This document shows positions 8,170 to 58,003 of a DNA stretch of 64,000 nt, one piece after another. Below the pieces are notes generated by a model. The model was not told where the DNA came from. It saw only the letters and a list, made by a program, of their open reading frames with translations, and searched no databases. The DNA is taken from positions 16,086,041 through 16,150,040 of the forward strand of contig CM026562.1 of NCBI GenBank assembly GCA_015143295.1, given 5' to 3'. This stretch comes from Tetracentron sinense. Lineage: Eukaryota; Streptophyta; Magnoliopsida; Trochodendrales; Trochodendraceae. Made by a program: the position numbers and the translations under genes. Position 1 is the first letter of the stretch; every line of letters starts with the position of its first letter.

Positions 8170-9292
8170 TGACAAGTAATTCTCTACTCTCTTGTCTGCT
8201 CGTCACAATCAAGATTTTGGATCATTTCAATGTCCCCCTTCTAATGAGCTGGATGAGAATGATAGGGAATTCTTATCTATGGAATTAGTGGCTGCTGATG
8301 TCAAAGAGGCTGTGTTTAGCTCTAATGGGGATAAAGCCCCTAGGCCTGATGGGTTTAATGCCAAGTTATTCCAGGTTTGTTGGACCATCATCTCGTCTAA
8401 TGTGACTAAAGCAATTCTAAGTTTCTTCTCGAGTGCAAAGCTGCTTGGTGAGGTCAACGCCACCCTTATTTCATTGATTCCGAAGAAGGATAGGCCAGAG
8501 TCCTTTGCTGATTTCCGTCCCATCTCTGTGTGTAATGTTCTCTATCGCTTTATCTCCAAGATGATTGTCTCCCGTCTCAAGCCTATGATGTGCAAGCTCG
8601 TCAGTGCAAATCAGTCTGCTTTCGTTAAAGGGCGTTGGATTTCGGATAACATATTACTTTGTCAGGAGCTAGTTCACAATTATCACCTCCGGCGGGGCAC
8701 TCCCAGAACGGCTATAAAAGTGGACATCAAGAAGGCCTACGATTCTGTCTCGTGGGATTTCTTGGAAACGGTTATGCTCAAATATGGTATGCCTAGGAGA
8801 TTCATTAAGTGGATTATGGCTTGTGTATCAGGTGCCAAGTTCTCCATTATGCTAAATGGTGATCGTGTTGGCTACTTCCATGGAAGCCGGGGTTTGCGCA
8901 AAGGGGACCCTATTTCTCCCTATCTCTTCATGTTAGTTATGTAGGTTCTTTCCAACCTCCTCGACAGGGAACCTCGTGAGGGACGACTGATCCCCCACCC
9001 TTTTTGCTCTAAGCCGTTAATCACTCACTTGTGTTTTGCAGACGATCTTGTTATCCTCTCCAAGGTTAAGCTCTCGTCTATTCGAGCTATTGCTTCCTCC
9101 TTGAAATTGTTCTCCTGTTCTGGACTTCAAATTAACTTGGATAAATCTCATATCTTCCTTGGTAATGTTTCCAATAGGCTTCGCACACGCATTCAACAGA
9201 AGCTGGGATTTTGTATTGGAGCTCTTCCGATCACTTATTTAGGGCTTCCACTCTCTGCTACTAGGCTTACCAAGGCAGACTGTCAAGCCCTC
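8170..9292 (+). pseudogene. LINE-A ORF2, reverse transcriptase domain (middle piece)
   Basis: This piece continues LINE-A ORF2 after the LINE-B insertion. It starts at FSTLLSARHNQ, the segment just before the reverse transcriptase. Motifs in order are DKAPRPDGFNAK, DFRPISVCNV, SAFVKGRWISDN, KVDIKKAYDSVSW, GLRKGDPISPYLF and, near 9032-9043, the catalytic FADD. A TAG at 8942-8944 stands where the intact sister at 53188-56210 has CAG, and LINE-B has TAG at the same codon. The frame is otherwise open to the LTR insertion after TKADCQAL. A TAA at 8176-8178 at the edge may be part of the insertion scar. Confidence 0.9.
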
Positions 9293-9583
9293 TGTCGCGA
9301 CCCAAAACCCACCCTAGGAGTTAGAGTGAACTTTGGACGACTAATCATGACTTGCTTGACAACCAACCTGCAAAACCCACAGAGCATATACCATAGAGGA
9401 CAATATAGCTGAAACATAACTATAAAACACAGCGGAAGTCTAACCAAACCTCTATGAATATACATACGCAAATCCAAGTTTATACAAAAAGTAACCAAAA
9501 GAAAGTGCGGACAGACCCGCCAAAATACATGAATGGATATCTCTCATCTCACCCACAGCTATTCACTCAGAATCTACAACCAC

Positions 9584-9703
9584 CTAATGGTAACCCTCTA
9601 CGGGAGGTTCCTCCAAAGGCTCCTCGACGTACTCCTCCTCCACCCAAGGGCTCGGAGCACAGATATCAAATGGAGCAGCTGCTCCGCCATCACCTGCCGA
9701 CAT
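9584..9703 (-). CDS. Short LTR-borne ORF, 39 codons, conserved between LTR families
   Basis: ATG at 9703, stop TAG at 9584-9586. The peptide begins MSAG, has a core APFDICAPSPWVEEEY and ends EGYH; it is acidic and rich in Pro and Glu. Equivalent frames occur at 13772-13891, 21194-21313, 32309-32425, 56550-56678 and 57881-58003. Most share the start codon, the stop position and the core, while surrounding LTR sequence differs more. No known family is recognised. It could instead be the end of a spliced exon, since the bases around the ATG (ATGTCGGCAG/GT) resemble an acceptor site. Expression is unproven. Confidence 0.45.
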   Translation of the reverse strand: MSAGDGGAAAPFDICAPSPWVEEEYVEEPLEEPPVEGYH

Positions 9704-9713
9704 AAGAAGTACG

Positions 9714-9734
9714 GCTGAGATTGGAATACTCAGC
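9714..9734 (-). other. Inverted repeat GCTGAG/CTCAGC upstream of the short ORF
   Basis: Two perfectly complementary 6-base arms are separated by 9 bases, ending 10 bases before the ATG of the short ORF at 9584-9703. The same structure precedes the short ORF at 21324-21344, 32279-32299, 56519-56539 and 57851-57871. A stem-loop in the transcript or a protein-binding site are both possible. Confidence 0.5.
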
Positions 9735-10004
9735 GGGTACTAAGCACTAACCAACAGTCATAGCATACAGATAGCATACATAAAGCAGGAACAATTCTTA
9801 TAAGTTAGAAGGAAACAATTCATATCATACAAGGAAGTAAAAGCAATTTATAATCATGCTTGTATTTCGTAGAAAGCCGTTAAAACCCTTGAAAATCTTG
9901 TGCACTTGACTTGATTGGAAATACCATTTCTGTGCTTGAAAGTTGTCATGTTGTCTTATCTTATCATATCATGCGTGTCATGCCATGTCATGCTTGCTTG
10001 GAAA

Positions 10005-10345
10005 GTAAACTACTTGTGAGGGAAGGGAGACCCTTCTTCCTAAATGCCCATGCTTGTCATGTCATGTATCATGCTTGCTTGTTCGGAAAAGTAATCTACT
10101 TGTGAGGGAAGGGAGACCCTTCTTCCTAAAATGCTCATGCTTGTCATGCCGTGTCATGTCATGCTTGTATCATGCTTGGAAGAGTAAACTACTTGTGAGG
10201 GAAGGGAGACCCTTCTTTCTAAATGCTCATGTCATGTCCTTTCACTTGTGAGATGTCCTTGTGAGATGTACTTGCGAGGGAAGGGAAACCCTTCTTATGA
10301 TATGTATGTACTTGCGAGGGAAGGGAGACCCTTCTTATGATAATG
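10005..10345 (-). repeat. Tandem small-hairpin array in solo LTR 1
   Basis: Five copies of a unit of roughly 30-95 bases each contain GAAGGG, three bases and CCCTTC, preceded by CTTGTGAGG or CTTGCGAGG and separated by CATGCTTGTCATG-like sequence. Each copy can form a 6-bp stem with a 3-base loop on either strand. Matching arrays occur at about 14145-14400 and 21625-21870, and in variant form at 31890-32005. Confidence 0.7.
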
Positions 10346-11229
10346 CATGATTGACTTGTCCTTGCCAAAAGCGAGGTAAAACATATCGTAGGATGTGCCC
10401 CACCTCTAAATCCCATTCTTGAAAAACGTCGGTAATCCATGTCATGCATGCGTGCTCGTAAGATCGTGTGCATACTTGCATTTGAAATTAAATATGACAA
10501 TTTGGGTAATTTACAAAGCATAGCATATCACGATTTGAACAAGTAATAAATCGCACATTTTGAGAAATGTAAGAAACACACTATCATATGCCCTAACAAT
10601 TTCATGAATAATTAAACATGTATTCCCTTAATTTATCACTCATTTTATTCACCTTGGCATCTCATCAAACATAGTGTGTTCACATGCTTTTCTAGGTGGG
10701 TTTTACTCACATCACATATGTATGTTTATTATGGGTACAATGCCCTCCCCGTTCATCCATCACATCAATACACACGGCATCCAATCGCCCACATTCATCT
10801 CCATTCATCATTCACCATTCACCATTCACAACCCATCTCATAATACATGGATGTATAAAGGAACACAAAGAAAATAAAGGAAAAGAAGAACTATAACTAG
10901 GAGGGTAGCAAGAAGTACCGACCTTGAACAATGAGGAAGAAACCCCTTCCAAAAACGACCGTGTAGCTGCTGCCCTACCTTGGATCACGAGCTCCTCGAA
11001 TGCTTGAGCCTTGATCTTGGAGAAAACGGGCTTGGGGTTGATCTAGGGTCTGTTACCCTTTGATTTCTCCCAAATGAAAACCTAGGTTTTGGAAACCCTT
11101 CTTCTTTCTCTCTATCTCTCAAAAGACTCTAAGGGTTGTGTATGAACCCTCAAATGATCGGGCAAAGCCTTTAAGGTATGAGTGAAACGCCCAAAAGATG
11201 AAAACACCCTTACTAAATTTTCAGCAAAA

Positions 11230-11435
11230 ACGCGAGTACCGAGCGATCGGTGTTAATGACCGATCGATCGGTTGCCTACCGATCGATTGGTTTCATAACC
11301 GAGCGATCGGTTAAAATTTCACTCTCTGGAAAATTTCCCCATACAAAAATCTTGACCAGTCGATAGCCTCCGAGCGATTGGTTTTGGACCGATCGATTGC
11401 TCCATGGACCGAGCGATCGGTTGCCTGCAGGTCCA
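11230..11435 (-). repeat. Cluster of GATC-centred palindromes in the U3-like part of solo LTR 1
   Basis: At least six sites of the form ACCGATCGATCGGT or ACCGAGCGATCGGT lie within about 200 bases, spaced 15-40 bases apart. The G1 LTRs have the same cluster at about 15305-15500 and 22765-22955; further copies are at 30830-30980, 50690-50820 and 63700-63870. The position, 200-400 bases from the LTR 5' end, suggests a regulatory array in U3. This is inference. Confidence 0.65.
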
Positions 11436-11633
11436 GACTGTTTTGGCCATATCTTTTGACTCGCTCGTCGGATTTTGACGATTCAACTTGCGTTGGGTTC
11501 GTACTTCGAAAAGGAACATTTCTGATGTTTCGGAATTTCCAATTTCTTCCTTATTTATTAATTATACCTCTTTGAAGGCAAAATGGCAAAGAAAGTGTCA
11601 TGCATTAAATGTGAAAAGGTCCGGGGCTCTACA

Positions 11634-13465
11634 CCCTCATTGATAAAATTTCCAAGCGTATCTCCTCTTGGAAAAATATGTGGCTTACGTATGGAGGGAG
11701 AGTGGAGTTGATTAACAGGGTGCTCCATAGCTTCCACTTGTACTGGTGTAGTTCTTCTTACTGGCTATACAGGTGGTTGCTCATATTGAAAGCATCCTAG
11801 CTCGATTTCTTTGGTCTGGGCCTGATCTCCATCATAGCCTTCACAAAGTAGCATGGAATGATGTGTGTAGGCCGCATGGTGAAGGGGGGCTGGGTCTTCG
11901 AAGAGTTCTAGAATGGAACTACAGTGCTTTGCTGAGGCAAATTTGGGAAATTGCATCTAAAGGATGCATCTATTTGGGTCGAGTGGTTTCACTGCCGGTA
12001 CCTCACAAATGACTCCATTTGGACCATGCGGATGCCTTCTACCCCTTCTTGGAGTATTAGAAGTATTTTGAAACTACGGCACCTTGCCGAAGGAGCCATC
12101 CATCATATTATTGGTAATGGCCAATCTACCCTTCTGTGGCTTGATCATTGGCACCCTAGGGGAGTGTTGCTCAGAGACTGTAGGCAACATACTTCCCTTA
12201 TCCACGGTATCAACAAAAGAGCGTTGGTAGCTTCTATTAGAGTGGATAGTGGATGGAGGATTGAAGTTCCTAGTGTCCCAGAGTTAATTGAGGTTTGGGA
12301 AGATGTCTGCGACATTCAGTTGCTTGGTGATGTGCCTGACCGCATTGTTTGGACTCCTTCGAGTCACGGTCTATTCACAATGAAGTCGGCTTGGGACTGC
12401 GTTAGAACTGCAAGAGTTAAAGTTCGGTGGGCGGATATTATCTGGTATTCTCAGGCCAATCCCAAGCACTCGGTTATAGCTTGGATGGCGTTTCGGCAAG
12501 CCTTATCAACCAAGGACAAGCTCTCTCGGTTAGGTATTGGCACCAATGTTCAGTGCACCCTTTGTCGGCTTGCCCCTGAGAGTCACGATCACATTTTTGT
12601 CTCTTGTCCCTACTCTTCGATCATCTGGACTCATCTCACTAGGAGACTACAATTGCCGGTTCGCTCATTTCAGCAATGGAACAACGTGATCAGGTTTATG
12701 TTCAGGCTATGTGCTGCCAATGGTCTTAAAGGGATGGCCCGAAAAGTTGTGTTTTGTGCCTTTGTCAATCACATTTGGATAGAAAGGTACAGTAGGTGCT
12801 TTCGCAATGAATTCCATCCTCCTGAGCTGATCACTTGGAGAATTCTTGATGAGGTCTTTATCAAACTGAATTCTGGTAATATCACTGTTGTTGACAATGC
12901 CATTAATAGATCTATTTCGTCCTCCATAGGCATTCAAGCCAGTTGGAAATCTCGCCATGCTCGATGAATCGCTTGGAAACCTCCTAGAGATGGATTTTTC
13001 AAATTGAATATGGATGGGTCTGCCAAGGAGATCAGTAGTGGGTACGGGTGGATCATCAGGGACATGGATGGTCTGCCAATTGTGCCTGTTGTTGGCCGTA
13101 GACATGGTTGTACAGTCATCTCTAGTGAGCTTTATGCTATTAAGAGCCCCCTTGAGATTGCTCATGACCTTATTCAGAATATCCTGATTGAGTCATATTC
13201 TACTTGGGCTGTTGCTTGTGTCCAGAAAACTTGCTTAGCGCCATGGCATTGCTCCTACATTCTTGCTGACATTGAAAGGTTAACCAAGTGCTTTAGTAGT
13301 TGGGAAATTGGTTGTACTTTTCGTCAAGCCAACAAAGCCGCTGATTTTTTGTCTAAAATATGTACTTCCATGGGAGAAATCTCGTTTATTCCTTCTGTTT
13401 TTCCCTTAGCCTTATCTAAGATTGTGCTTAGGGATTGCCAAGGGCGCAACTTCTTGCGTTTGTAA
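11634..13465 (+). pseudogene. LINE-A ORF2, C-terminal part: thumb, zf-RVT and RNase H
   Basis: After the solo LTR the LINE resumes with IDKISKRISSWKN and runs through the thumb region, a zf-RVT segment (CTLCRLAPESHDHIFVSCPY, about 12550-12620) and an RNase H domain (NMDGSAKE, SELYAI, NKAADF) to the stop at 13463-13465. It is broken by a frameshift at about 11756-11775, a one-base insertion at about 11960, and a TGA at 12965-12967 where the sister LINE has Trp. The original end is kept as FLRL, but no 3' UTR follows. Confidence 0.9.
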
Positions 13466-13471
13466 TATTTT

Positions 13472-15708
13472 TTTCGCGACCCAAAACCCACCCTAGGAGT
13501 TAGAGTGAACTTTGGACGACTAATCATGGCTTACATGACTTGCTTGACAAACCAACCTGCAAAAACCCACAGAGCATATACAATTGAGGATATGAACAGC
13601 GGAAAGATAATCTAACACAGCACAGCGGAAGTCTAAACAAACCTCTATGTATATACGAATCCAAGTTTACACAAACAGGAATCCAAAAGAAAGTGCGGAC
13701 AGACCCGCCAAAATACATGAATGTATATCTCTCATCTCACCCACAGCTATTCACTAAGAATCCACAACCACCTAATGGTAACCCTCTACTGGAGGTTCCT
13801 CCAAAGGCTCCTCGACGTACTCCTCCTCCACCCATGGACCAGGAGCACAAAAATCAAATGGAGCAGCAGCTCCCTCAGAACCTGCCGACATACGGATAGC
13901 ATACATAAAGCAGGAAACAATTCACGCATATAAAGCAGGAGCCATCAATATCATAACAAGGAAATAAGGCAATTTATAATCATGCTTGCATTTCATGAAA
14001 AGCCGATAACACCCTTAAAAACACCGTGCACTTGACTTGACTGAAAATACCATTTCCGTGATTGAAAACTTGTCATGTTTGTCTTATCTTATCGTATCAT
14101 TGGTGCCATGTGTGTCATGCCATGTCATGCTTGCTTGGAAAAGTAAACTACTTGTGAGGGAAGGGAGACCCTTCTTCCTAAATGCCCATGCTTGTCATGC
14201 CGTGACATGTCATGCTTGTATCATGCTTGGAAGAGTAAACTACTTGTGAGGGAAGGGAGACCCTTCTTTCTAAATGCTCATGTCATGTCCTTTCACTTGT
14301 GAGATGTCCTTGTGAGATGTACTTGCGAGGGAAGGGAAACCCTTCTTATGATATGTATGTACTTGCGAGGAAAGGGAAACCCTTCTTATGATAATGCATG
14401 ATTGACTTGTCCTTGTCAAGAGCGAGGTAAAACATATCGTAGGATATGTCCCACCTCTAACCATGTTCTTGAAAACCTCGATAAATCATGTCATGCATGC
14501 CGTGCTCGTGGGAACCGTGTACATACTTGCATTTAAATTTAAATATGACATTTGGGTAATTTCACAACACATATAACGTCAATGATTGAGCAATGTAATA
14601 TTCATATCATTTAGGGAAAGCAAGAAACACACTATCATAGGTATTCATAATTTATTTGGCATGCATTTCCTAATTTACAACTCACTTTATTCACCTTGGC
14701 ATTTCATCAAACATGGTGTGTTCATTATTCATTATTCCTTTAACCCTAAATCATGCTTTTCTAGGTGGGTTATGCTCACATCACACTTGTATGTTCATTA
14801 TTAGTACAATGCCCTTTCCCATTCATCCATCACATCATCCACACGGCATCCATTCGCCAACATCCACCTCCATTCACCATTCATAACCATTCACGACCAT
14901 CCATCTCATAGCTCATGTGTAAATGAAAGAAAAATCAAAAGAAATAAAGGGAAAAGAGGAACTATAACCAGGAGGGTAGCAAGAAGTACCGACCTTGATT
15001 AAGTGAGGAAGAAATCCCCTTTCCAACACGACCGTGAGTTGCTGCCCTAGCTTGAGGAGAGTGCCCCACACGAGCTTGAGCCGAGATCTTGAAGAAAATA
15101 GACTTGAGGTGAGTGTGGGTTCACAACCCTTTGATTTCTCCTCCAAAATCAAACCCTAGGTTAGGGATCGCCTTCTTCTCCTCTCCTTAGCTCTCAATCC
15201 TCTAAATATTGTAAATAAGCCCTAAAGGCTCGGGCAAGACTCTTAAGGTAAGAGTAAACCGTCCAAAAGACTAAAACACCCTTACTAAATTTTCGCAAAA
15301 ACGCGAGTACCGAGCGATCGGTGTTAATGACCGATCGATCGGTTGCCTACCGATCGATCGGTTTCATAACCGAGCGATCGGTTAAAATTTCACTCTCTGG
15401 AAAATTTCTCCATACAAAAATCTTGACCAGTCGATAGCCTCCGAGTGATCGGTTTTGGACCGATCGATCGCTCGCTCCATGGACCGAGCGATCGGTTGCC
15501 TGCAGGTCCAGACTGTTTTGGCCATATCTTTTGACTCGCTCGTCGGATTTTGACGATTCAACTTGCGTTGGGTTCGTACTTCGAAAAGGAACATTTCTGA
15601 TGTTTCAGAATTTTCAACTTCTTCCTTATTTATTAATTGTACTACTTTAAAGGCAAAATGGCTATGAAAGTGTCATGCATTAAATGTGAAAAGGTCCGGG
15701 GCTCTACA
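13472..15708 (-). repeat. G1 3' LTR
   Basis: A 2.24-kb copy of the G1 LTR, downstream in the sense of the element. It holds the short ORF (13772-13891), the hairpin array (about 14145-14400) and the palindrome cluster (about 15305-15500). The outer end abuts the LINE-A stop codon region at 13463-13471; the inner end meets the polypurine tract. Confidence 0.93.
13772..13891 (-). CDS. Short LTR-borne ORF (G1 3' LTR copy), 39 codons
   Basis: ATG at 13891, TAG at 13772-13774. It differs from the copy in the other G1 LTR (21194-21313) by one residue in the core (CAPGPWVEEEY is kept). See 9584-9703 for the shared features. Function unknown. Confidence 0.45.
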   Translation of the reverse strand: MSAGSEGAAAPFDFCAPGPWVEEEYVEEPLEEPPVEGYH

Positions 15709-15808: not shown

Positions 15809-18800
15809 TCATTCAATTAATTCTGGGTACTTCGCTTTGACTTCGGCTTCATGCTCCCATGTAGCTTCTTCCCGAGCATGGTGTTGCCATTGCACAAGAA
15901 CCAAAGGGATTGTCTTGTTACGAAGCACTTGATCTCTTCGATCCAAAATCTGAACCGGCTTTTCAATCAAGGTGAGGTCCTCTCGAATCTCCAACAGTTC
16001 CAAGTCTATGACATGCGAAGGATCCACAATGTACTTCCGAAGCATAGACACATGGAAGCCGTTGTGAACTGCGACCATGTGAGGTGGGAGAGCTACCCTG
16101 TAAGCAACCTCACCAACTCGCGTGATAATCTCAAAAGGCCCAACATACCGAGGACTGAGCTTGCCTCGCTTGCCAAATCTCATGATCCCTTTGCTAGGAG
16201 ATACTTTCACAAAAACTTGATCCCCTACTTGAAATTCCAAGTCCCTACGGCGCGTGTCCGCATAACTTTTCTGGCGATCTTGAGCGGCTTTCAATCGATC
16301 CCGAATGATCTTAACTGTGTTTGCAGTTTGCTCAATCAACTCCGGACCAAGTACTTTCCTTTCTCCTACCTCATCCCAATAGAGAGGAGACCTACAACTT
16401 CGCCCATACAAGGCCTCAAATGGCACCATTTGGATACTCGCCTGATAGCTGTTATTATAGGCGAATTCAACCAAAGGCAAGTGCTCTTCCCAACTGCCTC
16501 TGAAATCCAACATACAAGCCCGAAGCATGTCTTCAATGACTTGGTTCACTCTCTCGGTTTGTCCATCCGTCTGTGGATGAAAAGCGGTGCTGAAATCAAG
16601 TCGGGAACCCATAGCCTCTTGGAAACTTTTCCAAAATCTTGATGTGAATCTTGGATCCCGATCCGACACAATACTGACGGGCACTCCGTGCAACCTCACC
16701 ACTTCCTTGATGTATAGAGCGGCCAACTGGCAAGAGTTGAAAGTAGTTCGGTAGGGTAGGAAGTGCGCAGACTTCGTCAGACGGTCTACTACAACCCAAA
16801 TTGCATCTGAGCCCCTTGCCGTTTTTGGCAAGCCAACTATGAAATCCATGGATATGTTCTCCCATTTCCACTCGGGAATAGGAAGAGAATGCAATAGACC
16901 GGCAGGTCGCATGTGTTCTGCTTTCACCTGTTGGCACACTAAGCACCGTGCCACATATTCTGCAACATCCCTCTTCATATTCCGCCACCAAAAGTGACTC
17001 TTGAGGTTCCGGTACATCTTTGTACCCCCTGGATGCACTGTGTACTTCGAACGGTGTGCTTCATCCAAAATCTCTCTTCGAAGATCTGCATTGGCTGGGA
17101 CGCATAGCCTTCCCTTGAATGTGATAGCACCCCGACTAGTGAGAGAAAAGTCTTCACTGCCCTTGGCAACTTCCTTATCCCGGAAAGCCACCAATTCCGC
17201 ATCCATGGCTTGATATTCCTGGATCAAATCTATAATGTATGGCCGAACCGTAACATTTGCCAAGGTAGGACCACGGACAGAGTTATTCACACTGATGTCC
17301 AGATTTGCCAAATCTTCTAGTAGCTTCCATTCTTGAACCAACATGTGTGCTAACAACCCCTGAGGTCTTCTACTCAAAGCATCAGCCACTACATTTGCTT
17401 TACCCAGGTGGTATTGAATGGTACAATCATAATCCTTCAGAAATTCCATCCAATGCCGTTGCCTTAGATTCAATTCCTTTCGGGAAAAGAGGTACTTGAG
17501 GCTCTTGTGGTCCGTATACACATAGAATTCCACCCCGTATAAGTAATGTCGCCAGATCTTGAGTGCAAACACGACTGCGGCAAGCTCTAAGTCGTGCGTG
17601 GGGTAATTCTTCTCATGCTCCTTCAATTGCCTCGATGCATAGGCAATGACCTTCTTGTGTTGCATAAGCACACATCCAAGTCCAACGTGTGAGGCATCAC
17701 TGGACACCTCATACCCAAGAGGTCCGGATGGCACTGTAAGGACAGGAGCTGTAGTAAGCCTTTTCTTCAGTTCCGTGAAACTGATCTCACACTTGTCGCT
17801 CCATACAAACTTCGCATTCTTCCTTGTCAAGTAAGTAAGCGGTGCTGCAAGGCTAGAGAAACCCTCTACGAATCTCCTATAGTAGCCTGCCAACCCAAGG
17901 AAGCTGCGTATCTCCGTAACACTCTTGGGCTTCGCCCAACTCATAACTGCTTCGATCTTCTTCGGTTCTACCGAGATACCTTCTGCAGAAACAACGTGGC
18001 CTAGGAATGTCACCTCTTCCAACCAAAACTCACACTTGCTAAGTTTGGCGTATAGCTTGTGCTCTCTGAGCATTTCCAAAGCAAGGCGTAGGTCGCGTGT
18101 GTGATCTTCCTTTGTCTGGGAATAGACCAAAATGTCATCAACAAATACAATCACACACCTATCAAGATATGGCCGGAACACCCGGTTCATCAAATCCATA
18201 AAGGCTGCCGGCGCGTTCGTGAGTCCAAAAGGCATCACCAAGAACTCGTAGTGTCCATACCGAGTCCTGAAAGTAGTTTTGGGAACATCTTCCACCTTAA
18301 TCTTCAACTGGTGATAACCCGATCGAAGATCTATCTTTGAGAAAAATCTCGCTCCCTTCAACTGAACGAACAAATCATCAATTCTAGGCAATGGATACCT
18401 ATTCTTTATAGTGACCTTGTTCAATTGCCGGTAATCGACGCACATCCGCATCGAACCATCTTTCTTCTTAACAAACAACACCGGGGCACCCCACGGTGAG
18501 ACACTTGGTAGAATGAAACCAAGGCCTTGTAATTCCTCCAACTGAGTCTTTAACTCCTTGAGTTCAATCGGAGCCATTCTATACGGAGCCCTGAATATAG
18601 GAGTTGTGCCTGGTGCAAGCTCAATCACAAACTCAATCTCCCTGTCTGGAGGCAATCCTGGCAACTCCTCTGGAAATACATCCAGGAATTCACTCACAAC
18701 CGGAATAGTCGATGAGTCCTTTGCCTCGGGGTTAGCTAAGCTCAACGCCGCAAAACGAGCGATATCTCTACCTTTCAACCCCCCGTAAGTGAAATGGTTT

Positions 18801-19226
18801 TCCTTCTACCGGCTTGAAGAGTACCATCTTCTCAAAGCAAGCTACATGCCCATGATGCGCTGCTAACCAATCCATTCCCAATATAACATCAAAGTCTTGG
18901 AATCCAAGGACGATGAGATCAACCGCCAACTCGTGGCTTCCAACTTGGACCACACTATTTCTATACACTTTATCTGCCAATACTGTTTTGCCGAGGGGAG
19001 TCGAAATGGCTAACTCCGGTTCTAGCTGACTTGGCTCTACAGAAAAGCCTTCTGAAAAACTCGGCGAGACAAATGAATGAGTAGACCCGGTATCAATCAA
19101 CACTTGAGCCAAATACTCATTGACTAGTAGGGTTCCTGAAATTTTAACTAGCAGAGTTAATCCATGCATCAACAGTGTATACATGTAGGTATATATACAT
19201 ATATAACATGCCAAGTATGTACACAA
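15809..19226 (-). CDS. G1 pol region: protease, reverse transcriptase, RNase H, integrase, chromodomain-like tail
   Basis: Domains in order on the minus strand are as follows. The aspartic protease (DTGSTHSF, about 19100) comes first. The reverse transcriptase has [29 protein letters not shown] and the catalytic FVDD, about 18550-17950. RNase H follows ([27 protein letters not shown]), about 17730-17370. The integrase has an HHCC-type zinc segment (HPGGTKMY...C..C), a core ([28 protein letters not shown]) and a C-terminal [13 protein letters not shown] segment resembling the chromodomain of plant chromoviruses. These replicate and integrate the element and may guide it to heterochromatin. This is an element gene, not a host gene. 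Confidence 0.9.
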
Positions 19227-19312: not shown

Positions 19313-20533
19313 TCACCCTCTGTCAAGGCAAAAACTCGCCCCTGGTTTGCCTGGCGAGAGACTGAGGTGTAGACCGGGTAGTATGAGATGACGCCTGATA
19401 TGATCTGCTGGGCGTGCTGGTGGACTAATCCCCTGAGACTGACCTGGTAAATGCCGGCTAGGGCAATCCCTGATCATGTGGCCCTGGCGACCACAATGAT
19501 AACATCCACCAGATGCTCTTCGGCAATCTCCTACCGGATGCCTTTTGCCGCATGAAGTGCAGACCTCATATGTGTAGGCCGGAGGGGCCGAAGGTGGTGT
19601 ATACCTCGCTGCCTGAGGTGTAACTGGCCGAGGGGCCGGAAGAGCCTGAGGTCGAGGTGCCTGTGGCACGTACTGTCGTGGGGCTGGAGGCGCATAAGTC
19701 GGCCTCATCTGTGGTGCTGGCCATGTATACTGATAAGGACCAGTCCGGGCCCGCCTCTCTAAAGGTACCGAACCACTAGATTGGCCTCTCACCAATTCTC
19801 TCTTCTTGGACACGGTCTCTGAATTGCTCTCAACCAACAAGGCCTTGTCTACCACTTCAGGGTAGGTAGCATGCCTGAAAATGGAAACCTTCTCCATAAT
19901 AACATCCTTGAGCCCTTGCTCAAATCTTCTCGCCTTCATTGCCTCGGTGGCAATCATATGTGTCGCGAAGCGTGATAGCTCCGAGAACTTGGCCTCATAA
20001 GCGGCCACAGACATCGAACCTTGCTCAAGGTTGATGAATTCTCTCTCTTTCTTTTCCCGTGCACCGATAGGAAAATACTTCTTGTAAAAAGTATCTTTGA
20101 ACTCTTCCCAAGTCCAAGGTTGACCCTGTATGGTCAAATCTCGCGTCCTCAATGCGGACAACCACCAATGGTGGGCTTCACCCTCTAGCATAAAAACTGC
20201 CCATGCCACTCTCTCTTCCTCTGTAGGAGTGAGCACCGCAAATATCTTCTCAACCTGGAGGATCCAAGCCTCCGCAGTAAGAGGGTCCACACTCCCGTGG
20301 AAGGGTGGAGGCCTCAATCTCCTGAATGCCTCAACTCATGCGGTACGATGTACTGGAGCTGCGGGCGGTGGAGTAGGTGCCGCCGATGATGGTATAGCCT
20401 GCCGAGCCGCCAGTATGGCGAGTGTCTCAGCAATAGAGCCTAAGACCTGAGAGAGGTCTGGCTGCTCATCCTCATCCCGTGAAGAAGAGGAAGCTCTGGT
20501 ATGTGGTCCACGACCCCGTGTGCCCCGCCTCAT
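19313..20533 (-). CDS. G1 gag region
   Basis: This is the capsid/nucleocapsid precursor of the Ty3/gypsy element. Visible parts are a Ser/Pro/Ala-rich N-terminus, a retrotransposon gag domain (FHGSVDPLTAEAWI, EAHHWW, YEAKFSELSRFA; about 20300-19850), a Pro/Ala-rich linker and a CCHC knuckle (CYHCGRQGHMIRDC, about 19510-19470). It precedes the protease across an AT-rich spacer of about 90-150 bases that is also recognisable in the G2 element at about 59930-60110. Confidence 0.85.
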
Positions 20534-20877
20534 GACTAAAGTCCTGAGAACAATAGCACCACATGAGTCTCACTTGAAACCACAGTTTATTTCAATGTCG
20601 TTTCACAATAATTCAATTTGTATTAGTTGTATAGTACTAATATACATCACATCAAGTCATCAGAGTATTCATCACATTATACTTATACTTTAGCGTTCTA
20701 GCGTACCTAGGACCGTACTTGGTTAAAGCAACCATTTTAGACTAAGACTAAAGTTTAGTCTTACACTTGGATCAAGACTCTCTTCCGACTTACTTCCTTC
20801 CTAACTTGTTTCCTAACATATGCTCTTGGCAAGTCGTAGTATAAGATTCTAAGTGACCCTAGAGACCTAAAGCCTAA

Positions 20878-20889
20878 GCTTTGATACCA
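20878..20889 (-). other. G1 primer binding site (initiator-methionine tRNA type)
   Basis: On the minus strand TGGTATCAAAGC starts four bases after the end of the 5' LTR. TGGTATCA is the usual plant retrotransposon site complementary to the 3' end of initiator tRNA-Met. The bases 20534-20877 form the untranslated leader and hold no other feature I can support. Confidence 0.8.
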
Positions 20890-20893
20890 CTTC

Positions 20894-23167
20894 TGTCGCG
20901 ACCCAAAACCCACCCTAGGAGTTAGAGTGAACTTTGGACGACTAATCATGGCTTACATGACTTGCTTGACAAACCAACCTGCAAAAACCCACAGAGCATA
21001 TACAATAGAGGATATGAACAGCGGAAAGATAATCTAACATAGCACAGCGGAAGTCTAAACAAACCTCTATGTATATACGAATCCAAGTTTACACAAAAAG
21101 GAATCCAAAAGAAAGTGCGGACAGACCCGCCAAAATACATGAATGTATATCTCTCATCTCACCCACAGCTATTCACTAAGAATCCACAACCACCTAATGG
21201 TAACCCTCTACTGGAGGTTCCTCCAAAGGCTCCTCGACGTACTCCTCCTCCACCCATGGACCAGGAGCACAAACATCAAATGGAGCAGCAGCTCCCTCAG
21301 AACCTGCCGACATAAGAAGTACGGCTGAGCATGGAATACTCAGCGGGTACTAAGCACTAACCAACAGTCATAGCATACGGATAGCATACATAAAGCAGGA
21401 AACAATTCACGCATATAAAGCAGGAGCCATCAATATCATAACAAGGAAATAAGGCAATTTATAATCATGCTTGCATTTCATGAAAAGCCGATAACACCCT
21501 TAAAAACACCGTGCACTTGACTTGACTGAAAATACCATTTCCGTGCTTGAAAACTTGTCATGTTTGTCTATCTTATCGTATCATTGGTGCCATGTGTGTC
21601 ATGCCATGTCATGCTTGCTTGGAAAAGTAAACTACTTGTGAGGGAAGGGAGACCCTTCTTCCTAAATGCCCATGCTTGTCATGCCGTGACATGTCATGCT
21701 TGTATCATGCTTGGAAGAGTAAACTACTGGTGAGGGAAGGGAGACCCTTCTTTCTAAATGCTCATGTCATGTCCTTTCACTTGTGAGATGTACTTGCGAG
21801 GGAAGGAAAACCCTTCTTATGATATGTATGTGTACTTGCGAGGGAAGGGAAACCCTTCTTATGATAATGCATGATTGACTTGTCCTTATCAAGAGCGAGG
21901 TAAAACATATCGTAGGATATGTCCCACCTCTAACCATGTTCTTGAAAACCTCGATAAATCATGTCATGCATGCCGTGCTCGTGGGAACCGTGTACATACT
22001 TGCATTTAAATTTAAATATGACATTTGGGTAATTTCACAACACATATAACGTCAATGATTGAGCAATGTAATATTCATATCATTTAGGGAAAGCAAGAAA
22101 CACACTATCATAGGTATTCATAATTTATTTGGCATGCATTTCCTAATTTACAACTCACTTTATTCACCTTGGCATTTCATCAAACATGGTGTGTTCATTA
22201 TTCATTATTCCTTTAACCCTAAATCATGCTTTTCTAGGTGGGTTATGCTCACATCACACTTGTATGTTCATTATTAGTACAATGCCCTTTCCCATTCATC
22301 CATCACATCATCCACACGGCATCCATTCGCCAACATCCACCTCCATTCACCATTCACGACCATCCATCTCATAGCTCATGTGTAAATGAAAGAAAAATCA
22401 AAAGAAATAAAGGGAAAAGAGGAACTATAACCAGGAGGGTAGCAAGAAGTATCGACCTTGATCAAGTGAGGAAGAAATCCCCTTTCCAAAACGACCGTGA
22501 GTTGCTGCCCTAGCTTGAGGAGAGTGCCCCACACGAGCTTGAGCCGAGATCTTGAAGAAAATAGACTTGAGGTGAGTGTGGGTTCACAACCCTTTGATTT
22601 CTCCTCCAAAATCAAACCCTAGGTTAGGGATCGCCTTCTTCTCCTCTCCTTAGCTCTCAATCCTCTAAGTATTGTAAATAAGCCCTAAAGGCTCGGGCAA
22701 GACTCTTAAGGTAAGAGTAAACCGTCCAAAAGACTAAAACACCCTTACTAAATTTTCGTAAAAACGCGAGTACCGAGCGATCGGTGTTAATGACCGATCG
22801 ATCGGTTGCCTACCGATCGATCGGTTTCATAACCGAGCGATCGGTTAAAATTTCACTCTCTGGAAAATTTCTCCATACAAAAATCTTGACCAGTCGATAG
22901 CCTTCGAGCGATCGGTTTTGGACCGATCGATAGCTCCATGGACCGAGCGAGCGGTTGCCTGCAGGTCCAGACTGTTTTGGCCATATCTTTTGACTCGCTC
23001 GTCGGATTTTGACGATTCAACTTGCGTTGGGTTCGTACTTCGAAAAGGAACATTTTTGACGTTTCGAAATTTTCAACTTCTTCCTTATTTATTAATTGTA
23101 CTACTTTAAAGGCAAAATGGCTATGAAAGTGTCATGCATTAAATGTGAAAAGGTCCGGGGCTCTACA
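20894..23167 (-). repeat. G1 5' LTR
   Basis: A 2274-bp LTR with TG...CA termini. On the minus strand it carries the palindrome cluster (22955-22765), a purine/pyrimidine-biased leader-like stretch, the hairpin array (21870-21625), the GCTGAG/CTCAGC inverted repeat (21344-21324) and the short ORF (21313-21194). Its outer end directly abuts satellite DNA at 23168. Confidence 0.93.
21194..21313 (-). CDS. Short LTR-borne ORF (G1 5' LTR copy), 39 codons
   Basis: ATG at 21313, TAG at 21194-21196; the core reads APFDVCAPGPWVEEEY. The inverted repeat at 21324-21344 lies 10 bases upstream. See 9584-9703. Function unknown; not recognised as any family. Confidence 0.45.
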   Translation of the reverse strand: MSAGSEGAAAPFDVCAPGPWVEEEYVEEPLEEPPVEGYH

Positions 23168-26100
23168 AAATCTAAACCTATGATCGGATTTTGATGTCAT
23201 TTGATCTAACGCCCATATTTCGACCAAACCTGAGTGTGGGAATTCGTTTGGATGGAATGACTGAAATTCATATTTAGAGAGTCTACTTCGGCCAAATCCT
23301 AATAACGTGCACCAAATCTAAACCTGTGAACGGATTTCGATGTCATTTTTTCTAACGCCAGTATTTCGAACAACCCTGAGTGTGGGAATTCGTTTGGATT
23401 GAATCCGAGGTCGTTACCCCGATTTGGACACTGAGAGGCTCGAAATCCATACTTAGAAAGTATATTTTGGCATAAACCTAAAACCGCACAAAATCCAAAC
23501 AGGGGGTCGGATTTCGATGTCGTACTTCTAACGTGTGTATTTCGAACCAAACTAAGTGTAGGCATTCTAATTCGAAGGAATCCGTGGTCGTTTACCCGAT
23601 TAACGCACCGAGAGGCCCGAAATTCATACTTAGAAAGTATACTTCGGCCTAAACCTACAAATGCGCACCAAATCCAAATCGGGGGTCTGATTTCGATTGC
23701 CTTTTTCTAACGCTTGTATTTCGACCCAACCTAAGTGTAGGAAATCGTTTTGATTGAATCTGAGGTCGTTTGCCCGATTTGGGCACCGAGAGGCCCGAAA
23801 ATCATACCTAGAAAGTATACTTCGGCCAAAACCTACAAACGTTGACAAAATTAAAACTTGTGATCGGATTTCGGTGTTATTTGTTCTAACGCATGTATTT
23901 CGATCCAAACTAAGTGTGATAATTCATTTTGATAGATTCCGAGGTCATTTGCCCAATTTGCGCACCAAGAGGCCGAAATCCCTACTTAGAAAGTATACTT
24001 CGGCCAAAACGTAAAAAAGCGCACCAATTTCAAACCGGGAGTTGGACTTCGATGTCGTTTCTTTTGACACCTGTATTTCGACCAAACCTGAGTGAGGGAA
24101 TTCGTTTCGATGGAATCCGAGGTCGTTTCCCCGATTTGAGCATCGAGAGGCCTAAAATTCATGCTTACAAGGTATACTTCGGCCTAAACCTACAAACTCT
24201 CACCAAATCCAAACCTGTGATAAGATTTCGATGTCATTTCTTGTAATGCGTGTATTTCGATCCAACTTAAGTGTGGGAACTCGTTTTGACAGAATCCAAG
24301 AGGATTTGCTCGATTCGGGAAGCCAAGAGGCCCGAAATTCATAACTTTTCGCATACTTCGGTCTAAACCTACAAACGCGCACCAAATCTAAACTGTGCTC
24401 AGATTTCGATGCCGACTCTTCTAACGCAGTATTTTGACCCAACCTTAGTGTAGCAAATCATTTCAATGGAATCCGGGGTTGTTTTCCCGATTTGGGCATC
24501 AAGACGCCTGAAATTCATATTTAGAATGTCTACTTCGGCCAAAACCAACAAACGCGCACCAAATCTAAATCTGTGATCGGATTTTAATGTCATTTGTTCT
24601 AACGCCCGTATTTCGACCAAACTTGAGTGTGGGAATTCGTTTGGATGGAATGCCTGAAATTCATATTTAGAAAGTCTACTTCGGCCAAAACCTAAAAACG
24701 CGCACCAAATCTAAACCTGTGAACTGATTTCGATGTCATTTTTTCTAACGCCAGTATTTCGACCAAACCTGAGTGTGGGAATTCGTTTGGATTGAATCCG
24801 AGGTGGTTACCACGATTTGGGCACTGAGAGGCTCGAAATCCATACTTAGAAAGTATACTTCGGCCTAAACCTAAAAACGCACAAAATCCAAACAGGGGGT
24901 CAGATTTCGTTGTCGTACTTCTAACGTGTGCATTTTGACCCAACCTAAGTGTAGGAATTCTAATTCAAAGGTATCCGGGGTCGTTTACCCGATTCGCCCA
25001 CTTAGAAGCCGAAATCCATACTTAGAAAGTATACTTCGGCCTAAATGTAAAAAAGCGCTCCAATTCCAAACCGGGGGTCGGATTTCGATGTTCCTTCTTT
25101 AAACGAACATACTTCGACCAAACCTAAGTGTGGAAATTCGTTTCGATGGAATCTGATATCATTTGCCCGATTTGGGCACCGAGAGGCTCGAAATCCATAC
25201 TTGGAAAGTATACTTCGGCCTAAAAAAAACAAACAACACGCAAGGACTCAAAACCTGTGATCAGATTTGGGATGTAATTTCTTCTAACGCATGTAATTAG
25301 ATCCAACGTAAGTGTGGGAATTCGTTTCAATAGAATCCGAGGCCGTTTGCCCGATTTGCGAACCAAGAGGCTGAAACACATGCTTAGAAAGTATACTTCG
25401 TCCTAAACCTAGAAAAGTGCACCACATCCAAACTGGGGGGGGTCGGATTTTGATGCCATTTCATCTAATGCGTGTATCTCGACCCAACCTAAGTGTAAGA
25501 ATTCGTTTCGATAGAATACGAGTTCGTTTTTCCCGATTTGGGCATCGAGAGGCCCGAAATTCATACTTAGAAAGTAAACTTCGGCCTAAACCTACAAACA
25601 TCAACCAAATCAAAACCTGTGATAAGATTTCAATGTCATTTGTTCTAACTCGTGTTTTTCAATCAAACCTAAGTGTAGGAATTCATTTCGATAGAATACG
25701 AGGTCGTTGGCTTGATTTACACATTGAGAGGCCGAAATCCATACTTAGTGTACTTCGGCCTAAAAGTAAAAAAACGCACTAATTCCAAACTGTGGGTCGG
25801 ATTTCGATGTTGTTTCTTTGAACGCCTGTATTTCGACCAAACCTGAGTCTAGGAATTTGTTTCGATTGAATCCGAGGTCTTTTCCCTAATTTGGTACCGA
25901 GAGGCTCAAACTCCGTACTTAGAAAGTATACTTCAGTCTAAACCTACAAACGAGACCCAAATCCAAACCGGGGGTCGGATTTTGGTGCCGTTTCTACTAA
26001 TGCTTGTATTTCAACCAAACCTAAGTGTGGGAATTCGTTTCGATGGAATCCGAGGTCATTTCCCCGATTTGGGCACTGAGAGGCCCGAATATCATACCTA

Positions 26101-30563: not shown

Positions 30564-32722
30564 TGTAGAACCCTGGAACTTTTTGCATATGTCTTGGAAT
30601 GTGTGTCAATGCATGATGTCCTTGTAATCTCCTTTTTTATAGAATGAGAATTTGGAAGCCTTTGAGAAATTGTTTCAAGAATGCTATAATTAATTAAATA
30701 AATTATTTAATAATGTTCTATATCCTTGAAAGGGTCCTAGTCATGTTTAGAAGAGGTGATAAGGGAAGTAGGATGAGTCCAAGTAGTAGGAATGGGTGAA
30801 AAATGGACTTGGTGTCAAAACCTACAGAGAATCGATCGCTTGGTCCATGTAGCGATCGATTGGTCCATAACCGATCTATCCGTAGCTATTGACTGGTGCA
30901 CTTTTTTGTATGGGGAAAAATTCAGAGAGCTTGTTTTTGACCGATCGTTCGGTATTAGTCACCGATCGATCGGTTTTTCTTATTTTGCAGAATTTCATTA
31001 AGGGCCTTTTCGTCTTTGGGGCTTTATTAAGGCTTACCCGAGCCTTATGGGTTTCATAAACCCTAAGTAAGGCATTTGAAAGAAAGGGAGAGAGGAGAAA
31101 GGGGATTCTAACCTAGGGTTTCCATTTAGGAAGGACTCAAAGGGTTTAAAGACCCTAGATCATACCTCAAGGCTCTGATTCTTCAGTCCAAGGTTCAAAC
31201 TCGTGAGGAGCACGTTCTTCAAGCTAGGGCAGCGACTTCACACACGTGTTGGAGGGTTTTCCTCGCTTCTTCAAGGTCGGTACCTTTTGCTACCCTCCTA
31301 GTTATGGTTTCCTCTTTTCTTTCCTTATTTCTTTGTTTCTCTAAACTATAACTATGCTATGAGTTGGGATGCATGAATGGAGATGGGTGTTGGGTGATGG
31401 ATGTCATGTGAATGTGTTGTGATGAATGGAATGGGAAGGGTATTGTACCAATAATAAACACATATGTATGTCGTAAACATAAACTCACCTAGAAAAGCAT
31501 GATGTAGGCTTTAACAAATAATGTACACACCACATGTTTGATGAAATGCCAAGGTGAAGAAAATGAGTTTTAAATCAAGAAATGGATGTTTAAAAGTGTA
31601 TGAAATTGCTAGGGTTTGTAATAGTGTGATTAATTGCTTTCCTTAAATGACATGAATATTTACTTATTTAAAATTATGATATTCTAGGTATTATTGAAAT
31701 CCCAAATGTTATATTTAATTTCAAATGGAAGCATGTACACGATCCCACAAGCACGGCATGCATAACATGGTTTACCGGCGTTTTCAAGAAAAAGGTTTAG
31801 AGGTGAGACATATCTTACGATATGTTTTGCCTCGCTTTTGACAAGAAGACAAGAACAAGCATTGCATAGGAGGGAGTTTACACTTCCCTCCCTACCAAGA
31901 GGGGTCTCCCCTCACTCACAAGTGCATGGCATTGAAAGAAGGGTCTCCCTTCCCTCTCAAGTGCATGTCATTAGAAGAGGGGTCTCCCCTCCCTCCCAAG
32001 TGCATCTCACAAGCGCATCTCACAAGTTACATGAGCATGTTGAAATTCCACGCAAGCACGCATGACAGACACGCTCGACAAGATGATAAGTTTTTAAGCA
32101 CGAAAAGAGTACTTTCAAGTCAAGTCAAGTGCACGATGATTTCAAGAGATTTATCGGCTTTCATGTGATGCAAGCACGAATATGAACTGTTTTGCTTTCC
32201 TTTTATTATATGAATTGCTTCCTGCTTTATATATCTCGTTATTGTTATGCTGTGACTATTGGTTAGCATTTGGTACACGTTGAGTATTCCATGCTCAGCT
32301 GTACGTTTATGTCGGCAGGTACTGAGGGGGCTGCTGCTCCATTTGTTATCTGTGCTCCTGCCCCTTGGGTGGAGGAGTATGTTGAGGAACCTGTGGAGGA
32401 ACCTCAGGTAGATGAGTACTACTAGGTGGTAGATTCTGAGTGATCTGTGGGTGAGCTTGAGAGAGTATGTCCATGTATTTTGGCGGGCCTGTCCGCACCT
32501 TCTTTTGTGATTTCCTTTTGTACAACTTGGATCATGTGTATATATACTTAGAAGTTTGGTTAGTCTTCCACTGTGCTATGTTAAGTTCATGCTTCTGCTA
32601 TTATGTCCTCTTTGTATATGCTCCAGGTGTTTTGCAGGATGGTTTGTCAAACAACTCATGTAAGTCATGATAGGTCATCCAAGATTCACTCTAACTCCTA
32701 GGTTGGGTTTTGGGTCGCGACA
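30564..32722 (+). mobile_element. Solo LTR 2 (Ty3/gypsy, G2-related family)
   Basis: A 2159-bp sequence starting TGTAGAACCC and ending GGGTCGCGACA is flanked by a perfect 5-bp duplication TCGGG (30559-30563 and 32723-32727), and satellite continues on both sides. Its start, palindrome cluster (about 30830-30980), GGTCGGTACC block (31283) and end resemble the LTRs of the G2 element (49860-64000). There is no internal region, so it is a solo LTR. It also carries the inverted repeat (32279-32299), the hairpin array (about 31890-32005) and the short ORF (32309-32425). Confidence 0.93.
32309..32425 (+). CDS. Short LTR-borne ORF (solo LTR 2), 38 codons
   Basis: ATG at 32309, TAG at 32423-32425. 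It reads MSAGTEGAAAPFVICAPAPW, then VEEYVEEP, and ends VDEYY. Compared with the G1 copies it has substitutions and one codon fewer, yet frame, start, stop and core are kept although the surrounding LTRs are strongly diverged. Function unknown. Confidence 0.5.
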   Translation: MSAGTEGAAAPFVICAPAPWVEEYVEEPVEEPQVDEYY

Positions 32723-53187: not shown

Positions 53188-53189
53188 CA

Positions 53190-56186: not shown

Positions 56187-56549
56187 GCTTTCCTTCCCCC
56201 AAAAAAAAAAGTACACATAAGAACTCGTATGCACACAAGAAAAGTTATAAGAACTCGAAAGCTTATAAGAACTTGTAAGCTCATAAGAAAGACAATAAGA
56301 GCTCGAAAGTTTATAAGAACTCATAAAAACGCACGAGACTCACAAGTATTCATAAGCTCTCATAAGCATGCAAGACAGTGTTTTCCACGAAAAGAACAGG
56401 TTTTAAGAAAGGTTCTCCACGACAGGATTTTAAGCATCAATTTTATGATTAATGTTCCCTTACGCAATTGTATGTAATATTTGATTATGATAGCATTGTT
56501 AGCTAATAGTTTTGGTTTGCTGAGTATTTCATGCTCAGCCGTATATATT

Positions 56550-56678
56550 ATGTCGGTAGGTACACGGGGTCCTTTTGACATCTGTGATCAAGGGCCTTGG
56601 ATAGAGGAAGATTATAGCGAGGAGGAGCCAAATGTGGTGATTATTGAGAGAGAGGGGTCATTACATTTTGTATTTTGA
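56550..56678 (+). CDS. Short LTR-borne ORF (solo LTR 3), 42 codons, diverged
   Basis: ATG at 56550, stop at 56676-56678. It starts MSVGTRGPFDICDQGPWIEE and remains acidic, then diverges at the C-terminus. The GPFDIC..GPW.EE core aligns with the G1 and G2 copies. The inverted repeat at 56519-56539 ends 10 bases upstream, as elsewhere. Function unknown. Confidence 0.4.
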   Translation: MSVGTRGPFDICDQGPWIEEDYSEEEPNVVIIEREGSLHFVF

Positions 56679-57880
56679 TGAGTAGGCCTGTCTACTCTTA
56701 TTTTGGGATTTTGTATTGTACAAACTTGGAATACAAATTATAAATAAAAAAAGAAAATTTTGAGTTACGCTTCTACATTGTATTATGATTTCATTATGTC
56801 TTGCCTTATGTATATTACAGGATGGTTTGCTAGGTTAAGTATTGTCACACCTAAAGTATCCCTTAACTCCTAGGGGGTATTTTGGGGTGCGACAGCTACC
56901 CTCCTAGTCATGTCTTTGCCTCTTTTCTTTCTTTTTATGGTTTTTTCCCAAAATTCTAAGCATGATAATATGTTGGGATGAATGGATAGAGATGGATAAC
57001 CGAACATTAATCTATCTAGAAAAGCATGATGTAGGGTTTAACCATAATGTACACAACAAGTGTTTGATGAAATGCCAAGGTGAAGAATTAGTTCTAGAAA
57101 TGCATATACAAATTCGCTTTCTATAACGGCATGAATATTCTTATGAGTTGATTTGAATGCTAGTCCATATATTGTTGAACCTCAAATGTCACGTTTAATT
57201 ACAAGCTAAAGCATGTACACGACTTCACGAGCACGGCATGCATGACATGGTTTATTGGTGCTTTTCAAAAACAAGGGTTTTATTTTCGATTCACGAACAC
57301 CATGACAAGGCCAAACGTAAGGGTTGGTAAATAGAGGTAGGACATATCTTAAGATAGGTTTTGCCTCGCTTTTGACAAGAATAAGAACCCGCCAAGCAAG
57401 ACTCCAAGCATGCATGTTTACTTTCAATGCATTTTCGCTAAAGAAAGGTTTCCCCTCCCTCACAAGTTGTATCTCATTTAAGAAGAGGGGGTTCTAAACC
57501 ACCCTCCCTCACAAGTAGCATGAGCATGTTTAATTTTCTAGGCAAGCAAGTAAGCATGAGCATTTTAATTTCATGGCATGACATGCATGATACTACATGA
57601 CACGCATGACAAGACAAGCACGACTCGACAAGACCAACAAGACAGAAGAACATGATAAGACAAGTTTTTCAAGCATGAAAGGAGTATTTTAAGTCAAGTC
57701 AAGCACACGATGATTTCAAGAGTTTTTCCGACTATGATGTAATGCAAGCATGAAATATAAACTGTTTACTTTCTTGTCAATTATATGAAGTGCTTCCTGC
57801 TTTATTTCCATTACTATATTACTATGACTGTTGGTCCGTGTTTGGTACCCGCTGAGTATTTCATGCTCAGCGTACTTTTG

Positions 57881-58003
57881 ATGTTGGCAAGTGTTAGTGG
57901 AGCGCCCGCTCCTTTTGGCATATGTGCTCCCGGTCCATGGGAGGAAGAGGAGTACATCGAGGAGGCCCCTGCTGAGGAGCCTCATGTGGAGGGCTACTAC
58001 TAG
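57881..58003 (+). CDS. Short LTR-borne ORF (G2 5' LTR), 40 codons
   Basis: ATG at 57881, TAG at 58001-58003. The core reads APFGICAPGPWEEEEY and the end VEGYY. It lies in an old, much interrupted LTR, yet start, stop and core are kept. The inverted repeat at 57851-57871 ends 9 bases upstream. Function unknown. Confidence 0.45.
   Translation: MLASVSGAPAPFGICAPGPWEEEEYIEEAPAEEPHVEGYY

Follow-up and report, generated by a model that had tools for sequence, protein, structure and literature searches.

The window, by which we mean the whole 64,000-nucleotide stretch of Tetracentron sinense DNA analysed here, contains a full LTR retrotransposon on the minus strand together with solo LTRs. The features of the full element and of the two solo LTRs that are bounded by target duplications are as follows.

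9293..11633, minus strand: solo LTR, 5-base target duplication GAGGG
13474..15708, minus strand: 3' LTR of the full element, final two bases gone
15809..18805, minus strand: pol open segment, with RT, RNase H and the integrase zinc-binding domain; integrase core and chromodomain below cut-off
19313..20335, minus strand: gag open segment, Retrotrans_gag with a CCHC zinc knuckle
20531..20533, minus strand: gag ATG, 10 bases past the candidate gag acceptor
20878..20889, minus strand: primer-binding-site-like TGGTATCAAAGC of the full element
20894..23167, minus strand: 5' LTR of the full element, 2274 bases
30564..32722, plus strand: solo LTR, 5-base target duplication TCGGG

The full element runs from 23167 down to 13474, and its two LTRs are 99.0% identical over 2,209 aligned bases. 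The Pfam matches above cut-off are Retrotrans_gag, RVT_1, RT_RNaseH and Integrase_H2C2, while rve (22.9 bits, cut-off 32.6) and Chromo at the C-terminus of pol (23.7, cut-off 25.1) fall below it. Complete LTRs bearing the ORF described below start with TGTAGA and end with TCGCGACA, and three of those in the window measure 2.16–2.34 kb. From the LTR length and the chromodomain-like end of pol, we provisionally take the host elements to be Tekay/Del-like chromoviruses; judged from LTR length and the sub-cut-off chromodomain, the ORF carriers look like a large chromovirus group of that kind. Intact Bongo LTRs are put at 2.56–3.0 kb in an extract of PMC3605345.

From 23169 to at least 45038 there are repeats spaced 178–179 bases, in dozens of copies of 60–90% identity, which are possibly a centromeric or pericentromeric satellite; the solo LTR at 30564–32722 sits inside this array. 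LTR copies are nested in and around open frames at 53151–56135 and 8180–12967, which, by eye, we presume to be LINE-like. Also by eye, the 56550 LTR is apparently inserted within the 57881 LTR, and the 3' LTR of the full element lacks about 60 bases at 13830–13950, including a hairpin described below, that the 5' LTR keeps. The U3 regions at 22760–22960 and 11240–11430 show several palindromic CCGATCGMTCGGT-like units, seen by eye in the 30564 LTR as well, and these are possible factor-binding repeats.

Each of the six LTR micro-ORFs claimed in the earlier note is real in the sense of being open from ATG to stop, at 38–42 codons, three on the minus strand and three on the plus strand.

9584..9703, minus strand: micro-ORF MSAGDGG...VEGYH, 39 codons and stop, in a solo LTR
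13772..13891, minus strand: micro-ORF, 39 codons, in the 3' LTR of the full element; hairpin missing upstream
21194..21313, minus strand: micro-ORF, 39 codons, in the 5' LTR of the full element
32309..32425, plus strand: micro-ORF, 38 codons, in a solo LTR
56550..56678, plus strand: micro-ORF, 42 codons, family B, altered C-terminus
57881..58003, plus strand: micro-ORF, 40 codons, in the 5' LTR of a decayed element

The full element has the ORF within each of its two LTRs and solo LTRs carry it too, which places it outside the internal region. The MSAG start ascribed to most copies is found in four of the six, the exceptions being MSVG (56550) and MLAS (57881), and the matching ends GYH, EYY or GYY recur in five. 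The core APF..CAP.PW.EE was said to be kept, but in 56550–56678 it reads PFDICDQGPWIEE, and CAP is lost there. The family B relatives of that copy mostly have another, longer C-terminus (...DLDHWPF). In composition, five window peptides have 9–10 acidic residues of 38–42, none or two basic residues and some aromatic ones. A Pfam search of the six peptides gave no family at E up to 1, and a search for relatives in viral contigs gave seven stretches fitting the pattern, none of them confirmed. Peptide pairs taken across families A, B and C (family C coming from an LTR lying in L062) score z 8.3–12.5 above shuffles.

Further copies were drawn from the genome of the same species (1.16 Gb, 1,479 contigs). 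A 25-base hairpin sequence that precedes the ORF has 14,093 exact matches there and its reversed control none; four peptide searches gave 20,560–25,149 first-look candidates each, and in every search scoring covered the best 150. Two samples were taken by downstream DNA, namely 20 of the 40 loci listed for similarity 3' of the ORF of the 57881 element (W57) and 20 of 40 for W32. A third was chosen by the hairpin alone, with 40 loci from among the matches listed, 39 of them usable (without L117). The hairpin-sampled loci are all on contig C1. L031 was dropped because its orientation was not set. For dN/dS, frameshifted or unalignable copies were excluded and in-frame stop codons skipped. Five of the 40 flank-sampled loci (L074, L076, L081, L087 and L108) were left out of both dN/dS and the private/shared counts given below, and the hairpin-sample dN/dS was computed without six shortened copies (L118, L124, L129, L131, L139 and L149) and two open ones (L135 and L147).

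In the two downstream samples, 15 of 20 and 18 of 20 copies have a frame uninterrupted by frameshifts or internal stops; among those 18, two stop one codon early, one has lost its stop and two lack the ATG. In the hairpin sample, 33 of 39 copies, spread over several diverged LTR families, are open for at least 36 codons, so that the extra ORF is present in most copies, as is expected of an accessory ORF of the type called aORF in plant elements. Among the 31 kept for dN/dS, one has ATA in place of ATG. Relatives first seen through this sample include MSAGTVDVLDPEPWVEEEYVEE..., MSTGQFDISNPEPWVEEEYEEE... and MSASPFDIRGDRPQEPWVEEEYIEE..., and L124 and L129 may represent a further family (MSAGTLCDIHTPVPWIEA..., MSTGTLDEIWTQVPWMEV...) with a weaker core match and an earlier stop.

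Comparison of these copies demonstrates codon-type evolution across at least four LTR families. The earlier note had named a dN/dS near 1 as the result that would speak against coding; in copies chosen by downstream DNA the values are 0.44 (17 sequences used) and 0.30 (20 used). Off-frame controls, which belong to these downstream-sampled sets and not to the hairpin sample, gave 0.59 and 0.78, 1.17 and 0.85, and the downstream flank read as codons gave 0.61–0.80; therefore, the practical neutral baseline is about 0.6–0.8 and not 1. In the hairpin-only sample, dN/dS is 0.11–0.44 in 11 of 14 family pairs, and in the other three it is not computable, the synonymous sites being saturated (pS 0.76–0.88). 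Between groups it is 0.10–0.34, in 23 of 73 sequences that were hand-chosen and largely peptide-selected and are thus biased towards conservation. That many differences between copies are silent was borne out between families A and C, where the core block PWVEEEYxEE differs by 7% at first, 3% at second and 53% at third codon positions (165 sequence pairs, the block being located by PWV, which is present in 15 of 16 A sequences).

The distribution of substitutions among copies has the same character. Substitutions private to one copy have a nonsynonymous to synonymous count of 68:18 (3.8), and those shared by at least three copies 36:26 (1.4; Fisher P = 0.007). The shift is absent in the other frames and in the flank (P 0.35–0.86), although the shared substitutions taken alone do not differ significantly between the ORF frame and the other frames or flank (P 0.10 and 0.11). 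This contrast is what would be expected of selection on active elements followed by neutral decay of each copy after insertion. Length changes follow a similar division. The claim that they come in whole codons holds between families, where there are 9-nt and 3-nt steps, but in single old copies only two of eight distinct gap runs inside the ORF are multiples of three, as decay after insertion would lead one to expect. Equal conservation of the flank, the other result named beforehand as speaking against coding, was seen at one depth and not at the other. Between A and B (40 of 73 sequences, mutually below 93% identity) most of the flank is less conserved than the core, but among close copies the ORF is no less divergent than its downstream flank, with total divergences of 0.190 and 0.154 against 0.08–0.12 in a flank that was itself the search query; in the W32 set the ORF also exceeds the upstream flank (0.134). 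Since the ORF is not less divergent overall than the flank among close copies, the case rests on the codon pattern. With that pattern in hand, we consider it very probable that the micro-ORF is coding and under purifying selection.

Just upstream of the ORF in most window copies is a short hairpin.

9714..9734, minus strand: hairpin sequence with one arm altered; this copy folds otherwise
21324..21344, minus strand: hairpin GCTGAGTAT-TCC-ATGCTCAGC, conserved, nine pairs
32279..32299, plus strand: hairpin, conserved, nine pairs with G-U wobbles
56519..56539, plus strand: hairpin, conserved, nine pairs
57851..57871, plus strand: hairpin, conserved, nine pairs

As RNA, GCUGAGUAU-UCC-AUGCUCAGC forms in four of the five window copies folded, with z of -1.9 to -4.0 across the five. 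In 38 rows (36 flank-sampled loci and two window copies), most of the pairs that differ are G-U or no longer pair, and one is compensated; three further rows were unaligned, two of them still complementary by eye. Conservation of the hairpin as a structure beyond its sequence is thus weakly indicated. An Rfam search of 20500–23300 gave one sub-threshold match to an animal miRNA, which we take as chance. The hairpin is followed by CGTAC and then by ATGTCGGYAG/GT (the slash marking the putative splice junction, here and below), which opens the ORF. With the ORF start placed by best match to this motif, the first 12 ORF bases are identical in 33–39 of 39 letters per position, synonymous sites included, unlike the core. 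Over ATGTCGGYAGGT, the A versus C third-position differences at codons 2–4 are 0.125, 0.06 and 0, whereas the core block has 0.53. Where codon 3 has become Val or Thr, YAG/G is mostly kept, L144 being an exception. The nucleotide constraint over the ORF start looks like that of a 3' splice site.

Conservation of the hairpin and of the first 12 bases as nucleotides would also fit an RNA or DNA element that happens to be open, such as a splicing enhancer or a packaging or dimerisation signal. The ORF is rich in GAGGAG, and GAG-rich sequence could be an exonic splicing enhancer; the divergence of the ORF among close copies, which is no lower than that of the downstream flank, points the same way. 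However, an element of this sort would not lead to third-position changes while residues are conserved, to a private/shared contrast confined to the ORF frame, or to codon-sized length differences between families, and we regard it as very improbable.

The acceptor-like sequence at the ORF start has potential partners elsewhere in the element, of which the following are examples.

20543..20558, minus strand: candidate 3' splice site TGCTATTGTTCTCAG/G before gag, largely conserved between A and B
21303..21313, minus strand: ATGTCGGCAG/G, where the start codon overlaps the acceptor-like YAG/G, with the AG at 21305–21304
22455..22457, minus strand: candidate 5' splice site CAAG/GTCGAT in the LTR leader, intron start 22456
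31275..31277, plus strand: candidate 5' splice site CAAG/GTCGGT in a solo LTR, intron start 31276

In ten LTRs of families A, B and C, donor-like leader ends chosen by eye read CAAG/GTCGGT or similar, GAG/GTTAGT, AAG/GTTAGT or AAG/GTAAGT. The sequence before them, up to 260 nt, has no AUG in seven of the ten and one each in three (in L021, 34 nt before the donor), against 3.5–5.3 per 230 bases expected from shuffling; the next 1,033–1,247 nt have 36–63. A strict TATAAA or TATATA lies 220–242 bases before the donor in three of the ten, and a looser motif that includes TATTTA in six. The LTR therefore looks like a split gene in its layout, with a leader, a donor-like site, an AUG-rich 1.0–1.25 kb, the hairpin and the ORF in that order. 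In front of gag, A and B share CAAGTTAGACTCATGT...TTCTCAG/GA, and the gag ATG follows after 7 or 10 bases (9 in L061). The A–B identity at this acceptor is 0.72–0.78 against 0.45–0.53 in the preceding 80 bases, and other stretches of the leader reach 0.81–0.88. Since an AUG-poor leader is followed by an AUG-rich stretch and acceptor-like sites stand before both the MSAG ORF and gag, the simplest reading is a leader that is spliced to one acceptor or the other, and from these signals we consider it likely that leader splicing is real. Genome pattern searches for spliced retrocopies, which covered some of the family and acceptor combinations, returned no exact match for an A or C leader joined to the ORF and none with up to three mismatches for an A or B leader joined to gag.

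Which acceptor would serve the ORF affects what could be made from it. A second acceptor-like AG stands in the 3' arm of the hairpin (CTCAG/C); where a window copy retains it, the ATG follows 10–11 bases later. The hairpin AG (CTCAG) is kept in 28 of the 38 rows and the ORF AG (GYAG) in 33, and with retention so similar the data do not choose between them. If YAG/GT is the working acceptor, the ATG would be removed with the intron and could not serve as the start of the peptide, which would then be part of a larger spliced product. The ORF would in that case be an internal or 3'-terminal coding exon whose frame continues from an upstream exon, for example from an N-terminal part of Gag spliced into the LTR, giving a chimeric accessory protein in the manner of the CERV protein of Cer1 (see below). 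The low variation of ATGTCGGYAGGT even at synonymous sites, and the codon 3 changes that mostly preserve YAG/G, are as this arrangement would have them. It sits poorly with a leader exon that has few or no AUGs, with the lack of an identified donor in gag, and with conservation of ATGTCGG beyond the needs of a splice site, and we judge it unlikely. The idea in the earlier note that the ORF might be an exon end thus finds some support, in that it opens on an acceptor-like YAG/GT with little synonymous variation, for a splicing event that we infer.

The position of the ORF, in the 5' leader of gag-pol, raises a second alternative, that it is a cis-acting upstream ORF whose nascent peptide or whose translation tunes that of gag on the same RNA. 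It is short, it is conserved at the level of amino acids, and the hairpin lies 9–10 nt before its AUG. Conserved-peptide upstream ORFs have a conserved C-terminus beside a fixed stop and lie upstream of the main ORF on the same mRNA, and stalling ones usually keep the C-terminus, but here the C-termini of families A, B and C differ. Moreover, in five copies there are 17–26 AUGs between the ORF start and the gag acceptor, and on unspliced RNA the 36–63 noted above would come before the ORF. We hold this reading to be improbable, to about the same degree as the chimeric exon; because the MSAG start is lost if YAG/GT is used, both are kept in consideration at that level.

A third alternative is that the ORF encodes the N-terminus of Gag, as an exon joined in frame to the gag acceptor by splicing. 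The gag frame is indeed open back to the acceptor in A and B, differing there by one codon, and at 58667–58690 an in-frame difference of 9 bases leaves the 57881 element without the gag ATG, while its acceptor-like site is kept. Against it, no donor of the right phase and of conserved position was seen by eye in the ORF, the ORF has its own stop in A, B and C, and L061 breaks the phase. We consider it extremely unlikely.

We are left with a preferred reading, to which we give about an even chance. In it, Tekay/Del-like chromoviruses carry in their LTRs, beyond the promoter portion, the coding sequence of a selected acidic accessory micropeptide of about 38–47 residues, and a spliced LTR transcript is its probable source. 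Transcription would start in the LTR ahead of the AUG-poor leader. Splicing of the leader to the hairpin acceptor would make the MSAG AUG the first or nearly the first and so give the peptide; splicing instead to the acceptor before gag would give Gag-Pol, and the unspliced RNA would serve as genome, as in retroviruses. The packaged RNA would have to be the unspliced one because the intron persists in the DNA and would otherwise be lost at reverse transcription. The chances that the peptide is made from such a spliced transcript with the MSAG start seem to us evenly balanced, and those that it acts in trans slightly poorer than that. A role in trans is suggested by its acidic and aromatic residues, a composition that could recall acidic activation domains; alternatively, it may serve in export or in countering silencing. 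With a poly(A) site beyond the ORF, a solo LTR would amount to a whole micro-gene; with one in front of the ORF, only a 5' LTR reading into the element could supply the peptide. It is possible, although we doubt it, that each LTR is a complete split micro-gene with a promoter, an AUG-free exon, an intron, a hairpin-gated acceptor and the ORF, and that solo LTRs make a trans-acting acidic peptide.

Accessory ORFs within LTR sequence are known in MMTV sag and lentiviral nef, which are in U3, belong to animal retroviruses and encode far larger proteins. In plant LTR retrotransposons, the aORFs (env-like and antisense), as described in extracts of PMC7264820 and PMC11963269, are like the micro-ORF in being extra conserved ORFs of unknown function; they differ in that they are placed, according to the former, in the internal region, mostly between pol and the 3' LTR, whereas the micro-ORF has 38–47 codons and is wholly inside the LTR. 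In CRM and some Reina chromoviruses, the gag-pol ORF extends into the 3' LTR (PMC3605345, in part), so that coding sequence overlaps the LTR of a plant chromovirus there too, but it is the C-terminus of pol that enters from the 5' side, while the micro-ORF is separate and near the 3' end of the LTR. An overlap of the CRM type is out for the full element, whose pol ends at 15809, about 100 bases before the 3' LTR (15708), the ORF being near the other end of the LTR.

The closest precedent in function is the nematode Ty3/gypsy element Cer1, in which a spliced retrotransposon RNA gives rise to an accessory product (PMC10309623 and PMC12786077, in part). Its CERV protein comes from a spliced mRNA and is tied to export of the unspliced genomic RNA; it has 517 residues from five exons and is partly Gag. 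Introns or spliced or subgenomic Gag mRNAs are reported in excerpts on BARE (PMC3735527), sunflower elements (PMC7730604) and triticale GAG RNAs (PMC7765848). As in the scheme proposed here, splicing in these cases yields translated RNAs distinct from genomic RNA. They are mostly Ty1/copia, the one Ty3/gypsy GAG RNA of triticale being without an intron, and an LTR-internal intron with a coding exon is not described in those excerpts. Plant elements are generally without introns, with Ogre and EVADE as notable exceptions, according to part of a 2025 review (PMC12786077). Grape peptidomics placed 47 non-conventional peptides in LTR-retrotransposon regions, their position within these being unstated in the excerpt of PMC9070638. 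PMC3059260 makes no mention of introns, splicing or ORFs. Searches of the open-access literature found no LTR-internal conserved micro-ORF and no LTR intron in Tekay elements.

Usual practice treats LTRs as regulatory DNA without coding function and solo LTRs as inert scars. If the preferred reading is true, a selected LTR peptide in a very abundant group of plant retrotransposons would be a missed accessory gene of viral type and one explanation for the long LTRs, and solo LTRs may still express something. The inferred LTR intron could tell how these elements keep translated and genomic RNA apart, and can be put to the test. Should each LTR be a complete split micro-gene, the case that we doubt, the peptide from a solo LTR might for instance work as an activator, counter silencing, or export unspliced RNA on recognising the hairpin, and the thousands of dispersed LTR copies could act as one distributed gene.
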